Origin: Rodentibacter heidelbergensis | GTDB lineage: Bacteria > Pseudomonadota > Gammaproteobacteria > Enterobacterales > Pasteurellaceae | Assembly: GCF_002000125.1 (NCBI RefSeq) | Contig: NZ_MLHH01000002.1 | Span: 1 to 64,000, forward strand | DNA: 64,000 bases | Direction of reading: 5' to 3' | Part shown: positions 14,411 to 18,048 of the stretch, piece by piece | Position numbering within the stretch: the first letter of the stretch is position 1 | Layout: each line of letters starts with the position of its first letter | Made by a program: the position numbers and the translations under genes | Notes under the pieces: model-generated | Told to the model about the DNA's origin: nothing | The model's database searches: none | What the model saw: the letters and a program-made list of their open reading frames with translations, nothing else

Positions 14411-14456
14411 TATAATCAGGCAATTTTTTCGATTTGGTTCTTAATGAACCAAATTC
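14411..14456 (+). promoter_or_regulatory. maeB -10 element and leader hairpin
   Basis: TATAAT at 14411-14416 is a good -10, but I see no matching -35 at 17 bp, so an activator may be needed. Downstream, TTTGGTTC (14433-14440) pairs with GAACCAAA (14446-14453) in the leader, about 20 bp before the ribosome binding site. Confidence 0.45.
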
Positions 14457-14481
14457 TGTATTACCACAACGGAGTATTGAT

Positions 14482-16752
14482 ATGAGCGAACAATTACGCC
14501 AAGCAGCATTGGATTTCCACGAATTTCCTATTCCCGGAAAAATTGAAGTCACCCCAACCAAATCATTGGCAACCCAACGTGATTTAGCCTTAGCTTATTC
14601 TCCCGGTGTGGCAGAACCCTGTTTAGAAATTGAAAAAGATCCCTTAGCCTCTTATAAATATACCGCAAGGGGTAATTTGGTGGCGGTGATTTCAAACGGT
14701 ACAGCGGTGCTTGGATTAGGCAATATTGGTGCACTTGCCGGTAAACCGGTGATGGAAGGCAAAGGCGTATTATTTAAAAAATTCGCCGGTATCAATGTTT
14801 TTGATATTGAGGTGAATGAACATGATCCAGATAAATTAGTGGATATTATTGCTTCTCTTGAACCCACTTTTGGCGGGATCAATCTTGAAGATATTAAAGC
14901 ACCGGAATGTTTCTATATTGAACAAAAACTGCGTGAACGAATGAATATTCCGGTTTTCCACGACGATCAACATGGCACGGCGATTATTAGTGCGGCGGCG
15001 ATTATTAATTCACTTCGCATTATTGGTAAAAAAATTGAAGAGGTTCGTCTTGTGGCTTCCGGTGCCGGAGCCGCTTCAATTGCCTGTTTGAATTTATTGC
15101 TTTCCCTCGGAATGAAACGTGAAAATATCACGATTTGTGATTCAAAAGGGGTAGTTTATAAAAATCGTGGCGATCGCATGGATAAAACAAAAGAAGATTA
15201 CGCCATTGAAGATAATGGTTGGCGTAGCCTTGCTGATGCTATTCCGAATGCGGATATTTTCCTTGGCTGTTCCGCAGCCGGCGCATTAACACAGGATATG
15301 GTCAAAACCATGGCGGCACACCCGATTATTCTTGCCCTTGCCAACCCTAATCCGGAAATTACGCCACCGGAAGCCAAAGCGGTACGTCCTGATGCCATTG
15401 TTTGTACCGGTCGCTCTGACTATCCAAACCAAGTTAATAACGTGCTTTGTTTCCCATTTATTTTCCGTGGGGCGTTAGATGTGGGGGCTACCACTATTAA
15501 TGAAGAGATGAAACGTGCGGCAGTTTATGCCATTGCAGATTTAGCCTTAGAAGAACAAAATGAAGTGGTCACTTCAGCCTATGGTGGTGAAGGGGCAACA
15601 TTCGGTGCGGATTATGTGATTCCACGTCCTTTTGATCCACGTTTGATTGTTCGTATTGCCCCTGCTGTGGCAAAAGCGGCAATGGATTCCGGGGTGGCGA
15701 CACGCCCTATTTCAGACTGGAATGAATATAGTGAAAAATTGACGCAATTTGTTTATAAAACCAGTTTATTTATGCGTCCAATTTTTAGCCAAGCCAAATC
15801 GGCAAAACAACGCATTATTCTTGCTGAGGGCGAAGAAACCAAAGCCCTACATGCGGTACAAGAAGTGGTTTCTATGGAGCTTGCCTCACCGATTTTAATT
15901 GGTCGTAAAGCAGTGATTGAGGAAAAAATCAAAAAACTGGGTTTACGCTTGGAAGTCGGGGTAAACGTTGAAGTGGTGGATAATGAAAATAATCCACGTT
16001 ATGAAGAATGTTGGAAATATTATTACCAACTCACCAAGCGCAAAGGCATCACCCCTGCCATTGCTAAACGTGTTGTGCGTTCAAATACCACGGTGTTGGC
16101 TTCTGTATTGGTGAATTTAGGCTATGCGGACGGATTAGTCTGTGGCCTGTTTGGTTCTTATGGTAAACATTTAGATTCTATTAGAGATATTATTGGCTTA
16201 AAAGAAGGCGTAAAAACCGTCGCGGCGTTAAATAGCCTTGTGTTGCCAAGTGGTAATGTTTTCTTAACGGATACCCATGTTAATGATGACCCAAGTGCCG
16301 AGGAATTAGCGGAAATTACCTTAATGGCGGCAGATGAAGTGCATCGTTTTGGTATTGAACCGGCAGTCGCCTTGCTTTCTCATTCCAATTTTGGCTCATC
16401 AAATACCCTTGGCGCACCAAAAGTGCGTGAAGCCTTGAAAAGGGTGCAAGAACATCATCCACAGTTAATGATTGATGGTGAAATGAGAGGGGATATTGCA
16501 CTCTGTGCTGCACAACGCACAGAAGTGATGCCGGATAGCCCGTTAAAAGGTTCGGCAAACTTGCTTGTGTTCCCGAATTTAAGTGCCGCACGCATTAGTT
16601 ATAGTTTATTGCGGGGCACTACCACGGCAGTGACCGTAGGGCCTATTTTGATGGGAATGAACAAATCAGCCCATATCTTAAACCCGAGTGCTTCTGTTCG
16701 CCGCATCATTAATATGGTGGCGTACGCGGCAGTAAAAGCCCAACAAGACTGA
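14482..16752 (+). CDS. maeB: NADP-dependent malic enzyme (MaeB type)
   Basis: The 756-residue protein oxidatively decarboxylates malate to pyruvate. An N-terminal malic-enzyme region (to about residue 420) contains [11 protein letters not shown], the FHDDQHGTA metal/substrate motif and the Rossmann segment [15 protein letters not shown]-terminal phosphate-acetyltransferase-like domain follows, as in long bacterial malic enzymes, where it usually has a regulatory rather than catalytic role. ATG 14482 follows CGGAG at 7 nt; an upstream in-frame start at 14434 falls inside the leader hairpin and is not credible. The gene is monocistronic. Confidence 0.95.
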
Positions 16753-16800
16753 TTTTATTCAGTTCAAAAGTGCGGTTAAAATGCTTAATGTTTTTTCGGT

Positions 16801-17044
16801 ATTATGTAGCAGTTGCACAAAAGCCAAATTTCTTGTCTGATATGGGTAAGTTCTTTCCTCTCGCCCGCTTGCGGGAGAGAGACCGACGGAAATTGCGTTC
16901 GGCAATTTTCGTCAGAGAGAGGGAATTCGATGTAAATTTCCCCCCTCTCCCTCCGAAAATTCTACGAATTTTCTCCACCCTCTCCCGTAAACGGGCGAGG
17001 GGACTGAGAAGTATGCTCCATAATTTGTGCATTTGCTACATAAT
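16801..17044. repeat. 244-bp composite inverted-repeat element
   Basis: The outer arms are ATTATGTAGCAGTTGCACAA.. (16801-16821) and its complement at 17024-17044, matching at 19 of 21 positions. Similarity between the arms extends inward to CTCGCCCG-type sequences near 16860 and 16996. Inside are four hairpins: CCCGC/GCGGG (16864-16875), GACGGAAATTGC/GCAATTTTCGTC (16885-16913), GGGAA/TTTCCC flanked by GA-rich arms (16914-16950), and GAAAATTC/GAATTTTC (16955-16973). It lies between maeB and cmoB and resembles a REP/MITE-type intergenic repeat. It carries no credible gene. I see no clear target duplication and no second copy in the window. Confidence 0.75.
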
Positions 17045-17082
17045 GTCGTGTTTTTGGCCGCACTTTTATTTTTATTTATCGG

Positions 17083-18048
17083 TTATTTATTCGCCAAAAT
17101 CAAGGCCCTTGTAGGGGCAGGGTAACCTTCAATGGTTTTGCTGTGATCTTTAGGATCTAAAAAATCAATCAGACTTTCGTTTTCTAACCAATCGGTTTTA
17201 CGCTGTTCTTCCAAGGTCGTTGGTGCAACATCAACACAGCGCACGTTGGAAAAGCCCACTTTTTCCAACCAGAGAATGAGTGCCGCAACGGAAGGAATGA
17301 AATAGACATTTTTCATTTTGGCGTAGCGATCTGCGGGGACAAGAACCGTATGGGCATCGCCCTCTACCACGAGGGTTTCCAGCACCAATTCCCCGCCTTT
17401 TTTCAATTGATTTTTGAGTTGGGTGAGATGGTCAAGGGGCGATTTTCGGTGATATAACACCCCCATTGAAAACACCGTATCAAATGCGCCGAGAGGTTGC
17501 ATTTGTTCTATGCCGAGCGGAATAAGGTTGACACGGCGATCATTATTAAGGAGTTTACGAACCGCTTCAAATTGGCAAAGGAAAAGTTCGGTCGGATCAA
17601 TACCCACCACCATTTTGGCACCTTCCCCCAACATTCGCCACATATGGTAACCACTGCCGCAGCCCACATCTAAAATGAGGCGATCTTTTAAGGGTGCAAG
17701 ATGAGGCAATACACGCTGCCATTTAAAATCGGAACGCCACTCGCAATCAATATGAATTCCAAACAAATGATAAGGCCCTTTTCGCCATGGCATAAGCTGT
17801 TTTAAATGGTGGATAATACGCTGTTTTTCACCTTCTGAGAGGGGCAAAGTGCGGTCAGATTTTACGGCGTTTTTTAAATCGATACTTTCTGCCTGTAAAT
17901 CAGGTAAAAAATCCACAATTTTTGACCATTTCCCATAATCACCATGGGTTTGTTTTTCCCATTCTTTTAATTGAAGAGGGAGCGTTTCAAGCCAATCAGA
18001 AAGTGGGCTTGTAGCAAGTTGTTGATAAAAAGGGCGAAAATCGATCAT
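17083..18048 (-). CDS. cmoB: tRNA U34 carboxymethyltransferase
   Basis: The 321-residue enzyme uses carboxy-SAM to carboxymethylate 5-hydroxyuridine at position 34 of tRNAs. The SAM-fold motif [15 protein letters not shown] lies near residues 125-140, and [15 protein letters not shown] is typical of CmoB. The ATG overlaps the putP stop by 4 bp (ATGA), so translation is probably coupled to putP. The usual partner cmoA is not in the window. Confidence 0.94.

Follow-up and report, generated by a model that had tools for sequence, protein, structure and literature searches.

What is the nest of inverted repeats that separates the convergent genes maeB and cmoB in Rodentibacter heidelbergensis, and how did it come to lie there? 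The window, the 64,000-nucleotide stretch of DNA analyzed here, had been described in an earlier note as carrying at this position a 244-bp element with 21-bp arms (19 of 21 matching), without coding capacity and placed between a rightward and a leftward gene, and a MITE or a composite REP-like element was proposed. The gene arrangement is confirmed, no open reading frame of at least 150 aa overlaps the element, and the arms at 16801-16821 and 17024-17044 were recomputed as 19/21 complementary; they are the only two matches to the arm pattern in the window, with 0.02 expected in shuffled sequence. The extent is larger than claimed, with the true ends 4 bp outside these arms; the outer CGGTA/CGACA, overlooked previously, belong to the ends of an element that spans 252 bp (16797-17048) and has terminal inverted repeats of 25 bp, matching at 21 of 25 positions. 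These limits were set because the ends of related large elements, described below, stay conserved exactly to base 25, where conservation halts in an alignment of 70 such ends. The features of the locus are as follows.

14434 to 16752, plus strand: maeB (NADP-dependent malic enzyme), flanking gene
16766 to 16776, plus strand: uptake signal sequence (USS) AAAAGTGCGGT, the left half of the USS hairpin that was invaded
16789 to 16796, no strand: left copy of the target-site duplication, TGTTTTTT, from the sequence and the 8-bp rule of the family's duplications
16797 to 16821, plus strand: left terminal inverted repeat, CGGTATTATGTAGCAGTTGCACAAA, the same as the large-transposon repeat, from the arm match and end alignment
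16822 to 17023, no strand: noncoding interior of nested palindromes, from sequence and folding
16856 to 17003, no strand: core, interpreted as a composite of REP-like palindromes, which recurs without terminal repeats in L168, L169, L171, and L181
17024 to 17048, minus strand: right terminal inverted repeat, CGACATTATGTAGCAAATGCACAAA on that strand, from the arm match
17049 to 17056, no strand: right copy of the target-site duplication, TGTTTTTG, 7/8 matching, from the sequence
17058 to 17067, minus strand: uptake signal in inverted orientation, CCGCACTTTT, the right half of the same hairpin
17083 to 18048, minus strand: cmoB, convergent flanking gene

The USS form a second inverted pair outside the element (16766-16781 and 17052-17067), and this pair is older than the insertion. 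In eight relatives the maeB-cmoB junction is intact and lacks the insert, carrying only a hairpin of two inverted USS that is typically as tight as AAAAGTGCGGTTAATTTTAACCGCACTTTTTT, and it is this hairpin that the insertion broke up. The element itself is bounded by the 8-bp TGTTTTTT and TGTTTTTG, and a second 252-bp copy elsewhere in the genome (2.03 Mb in 33 contigs), with 5 substitutions and 2 indels relative to the first (98% identity), is bounded by a perfect 8/8 duplication, GTTTTTTA. There are about seven paired copies in this genome, and further arm pairs enclose different, mostly palindromic interiors. Among 40 MITE duplications collected, 21 match at 8/8 and 28 at 6/8 or better, against only 2 of 160 shifted controls that reach 6/8. 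The searches that the earlier note had called for, for copies, empty sites, and target duplications, thus all favor its MITE reading, and the contrary outcome, a single copy fixed at this site in relatives, was looked for and did not occur. Because of the duplications, the second copy, and the empty sites, the element is read as a MITE rather than a local RNA structure, and we consider it highly probable that it is a non-autonomous 252-bp MITE that inserted between maeB and cmoB, in the loop of a hairpin formed by a USS pair.

We found no literature on MITEs of Pasteurellaceae, and a search with the terminal-repeat string returned unrelated papers only. The terminal repeat is widespread in the family, being present in 96 of 140 Pasteurellaceae genomes, with no match to a reversed control pattern in the same genomes among the matches listed; outside Pasteurellaceae, most matches are about the number that a pattern of 17 fixed bases would yield by chance in 257 Gb. 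One record, CABDVE010000001.1 (loci L088 and L116), is titled Pseudomonas stutzeri NCTC11607 and is probably mislabelled (compare genome G012, a member of the Pasteurellaceae genus considered here).

The likely autonomous partners came to light in a search of the genus for IS1595-type transposases, which adjoined the same repeats. The left repeat of the window MITE is identical at 25/25 bases to the repeat of these large transposons, including one in the same genome, and the right repeat differs from it at 4 of 25; the match is confined to the repeats, and the MITE interior does not derive by deletion from any of the large units seen. From 46 loci, in many Pasteurellaceae genera, 35 units carry the repeat at both ends, together with an 8-bp duplication that is exact and in no case extends to 9 bp; these units were chosen for readable ends and a duplication, so 35/35 describes that set rather than all copies. 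Their 25-bp repeats are near-invariant, and their median size is 9.1 kb; the range is 6.3 to 11.6 kb, except for two units that are nested or tandem and measure 15.5 and 19.6 kb. In one genome (G002, L205 5389 to L206 4995) an A+B transposon is nested in another, the outer bounded by AAATTTAT and the inner by ATTCATTG, both perfect. Intact loci code for an outward-facing pair of paralogous IS1595-family transposases, one A and one B, of 350 to 390 aa and ∼40 to 45% identity, which form sister clades in a quick tree (SH-aLRT support of 99 for A and 97 for B). Both keep an N-terminal zinc ribbon and the catalytic residues D154, D241, and E276, and both exceed the cut-offs for PF12762, PF12760, and NF033547; judged by sequence, with a DDE transposase and 8-bp duplications, the large partners are members of the IS1595 family. 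A-like transposases are present in 55 of the 140 Pasteurellaceae genomes, and the few related proteins in other Enterobacterales (5 genomes) are not clearly paired. The A end also carries one or two small accessory genes, one family of which adjoins A at 43 of the 46 loci, a contig end being among the exceptions; these genes are possible transposition cofactors. Two examples (L208:13003-13911 and L210:1518-2612) appear as small coiled-coil and winged-helix-like proteins, with no family match above cut-off.

Two IS1595-type transposase genes flanking cargo could also describe ordinary composite transposons built from two insertion sequences, with the MITE as an insertion-sequence remnant, and in Rhodovastum two identical copies are indeed arranged in a composite-like way. 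In the large units, however, there are no comparable inner terminal repeats (other internal matches have 7 mismatches, nested and tandem units aside), duplications are present at the outer repeats only, and intact loci have one A and one B that are substantially diverged rather than two copies of one gene; the composite reading is therefore improbable, albeit the best placed of the alternatives. On the preferred reading, with single A+B transposons sharing ends with the MITE, transposases A and B would act jointly in trans, binding the MITE at its 25-bp repeats and moving it by cut and paste to A/T-rich 8-mers, with a preference for the gap between two inverted USS.

A candidate helper, its A and B genes both intact, appears to persist in the window genome, split over two contigs. 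Contig C15:1-2621 (L210:1-2621) carries transposase A followed by the repeat at its end, and C32:1-7197 (L209:1-7197) carries a type III restriction-modification system, transposase B, and the repeat. The outer flanks share the duplication AAAAAAAC, inside a USS pair, and are oppB and oppA, so the two are best read as halves of one transposon between oppA and oppB, at least 9.8 kb in total, the middle of which falls in an assembly gap. Not every genome with the MITE also has a helper, because genomes G001 and G003 have no A-type transposase match at the threshold used. These two genomes have ∼140 to 160 arm matches each, among the highest copy numbers, a possible relic or trans-driven MITE burst; some MITE populations, such as these, may be relics.

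The MITE interior has a history of its own. Its ∼150-bp core (near 16856-17003) recurs in relatives, lying between decayed copies of the MITE ends in L167 and having no recognisable ends in L168, L169, L171, and L181. Because relatives hold the core without terminal repeats, it is most readily explained as a composite of REP-like palindromes that was captured by the MITE and travels with it. Other MITEs of the same genome (L034, L040, L043, L044, and L025) have the same ends and a different palindrome, GTAGGGACACACTGCGTGTGTCC, which suggests that REP-like palindromes have been captured repeatedly as MITE interiors. The proposal of a composite REP-like element therefore holds for the inner core and not for the whole; membership of the core in the REP class is itself not established, because no RAYT-type transposase was found beside it.

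These same hairpins, arm-less in several relatives, are what a REP/BIME-type composite spread by a RAYT (Y1) transposase would offer, with the outer arms coincidental, and Y1-transposase genes are present in all 15 genomes. Yet none of the Y1 genes examined has core-like palindromes beside it (the nearest is ∼2.9 kb away), the same arms enclose other interiors, and arms and core move as one unit bounded by 8-bp duplications, which RAYT elements are not known to produce. A RAYT as the mover of the core was rejected, largely refuted by the duplications at the arms, and this reading is very unlikely.

The fold of the element has been taken to imply a large branched RNA, and folding does give −120 kcal/mol for the plus strand (z = −12) and z = −10.5 for the minus strand, both far more stable than shuffled sequences. 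Such a fold is possible, as expected of any nested inverted repeat, and an RNA function is unsupported, with no Rfam family matching the element above its threshold. That a conserved local RNA, a riboregulator or bidirectional terminator, accounts for the locus is hardly credible despite the very stable fold and the convergent genes, as eight relatives have the short USS hairpin instead and a near-identical copy lies at an unrelated locus. The MITE probably has no host function beyond spacing two convergent genes. USS pairs can act as terminators, and the hairpins of the MITE may stand in for the split USS hairpin in this role. The relation between USS and terminators is the topic of PMC1852404.

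Target choice was scored by complementary arms at free offset and by pairing of USS cores, with noncoding sites as controls. Each flank has an inward-facing USS core no more than 40 nt away at 21 of 35 large insertions and 8 of 28 MITE insertions, compared with 3.2% of 10,481 noncoding A/T-rich sites, and 15 of 35 large insertions, against 2.7% of controls, lie between complementary arms 12 nt or more in length. Two other scores were set aside: a test for base pairs spanning the center of the empty site, which 67% of controls also pass, and strictly symmetric stems, which are too narrow. Because some targets (L295, L316, and L322) have a hairpin and no USS, the recognized feature may be an A/T loop or dyad symmetry. 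The large units contain 0.048 USS per kb, 11-fold fewer than the 0.524 per kb of the sequence outside them, and they have a lower GC content (34% versus 40%). By inference, USS targeting would aid spread via transformation.

The cargo of the large units is mostly anti-phage, and chiefly restriction-modification. A motif scan, the individual matches of which are unverified, finds a methyltransferase motif in 25 of 37 loci, and scans of all cargo proteins give the same kinds of cargo; Pfam adds further such loci at L289, L317, and L320, and L300 is added by its likeness to L289. Other cargo includes AbiL (L296), PD-T4-4 (L207), a zeta toxin (L205), and YadA-type adhesins (L291, L295, and L297), and one A+B transposon (L311, 7291-9600) carries a retron with a St85-like reverse transcriptase and a type I-B Toprim-ATPase.

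Bacterial MITEs, such as the Correia elements of Neisseria, are short, noncoding, multicopy, and intergenic, with terminal repeats and target duplications. The window MITE shares these features, but its family differs from Correia elements in its repeats, the 8-bp duplication, insertion into USS pairs, and captured REP-like cores. Like REP/BIME elements, the core is built of inverted pairs of short, GC-rich palindromes, although it is bounded by transposon ends and no RAYT was found beside it. IS1595-family elements with passenger genes were reportedly described by Siguier and colleagues in 2009 (cited in PMC3339403 and PMC12561309), and the large units likewise have transposition-unrelated genes between the ends of an element with an IS1595 transposase; relative to that description, they differ in having different transposases at the two ends, mostly defense cargo, and targeting of USS pairs. 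IS1016-type elements are common in Pasteurellaceae (PMC8777487), and this subgroup of the IS1595 family, exemplified by ISApl4, makes 8-bp A/T-rich target duplications and has GGGG-type ends and a ∼217-aa transposase; ISApl4 is 712 bp long, with 14-bp ends GGGGCTGTACTAGA and a single 654-bp transposase gene (PMC12561309). The large units share the transposase superfamily and the 8-bp A/T-rich duplications with this subgroup, but they have 25-bp ends (CGGTATTATGTAGCAGTTGCACAAA), two zinc-ribbon paralogues, and cargo. They fall outside the subgroup, with ends starting CGGTATTATG, longer transposases, and a separate branch, and the IS1016-like transposases of the genus lie far outside A+B in the quick tree.

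The window MITE itself is ordinary, and its value is as a handle to a transposon family with ends in 96 of 140 Pasteurellaceae species. The family raises the question of why an element with two identical ends, of the IS1595 type, needs two different transposases. One tentative reading, which we put somewhat below an even chance, is that A and B form an obligate hetero-oligomer aimed at the A/T loop between inverted USS, such that USS-poor defense cargo would become flanked by two USS and would be preferentially taken up and spread by transformation. Such a family would link three usually separate things: transposition, the signals by which natural transformation recognizes self DNA, and the dissemination of defense systems.
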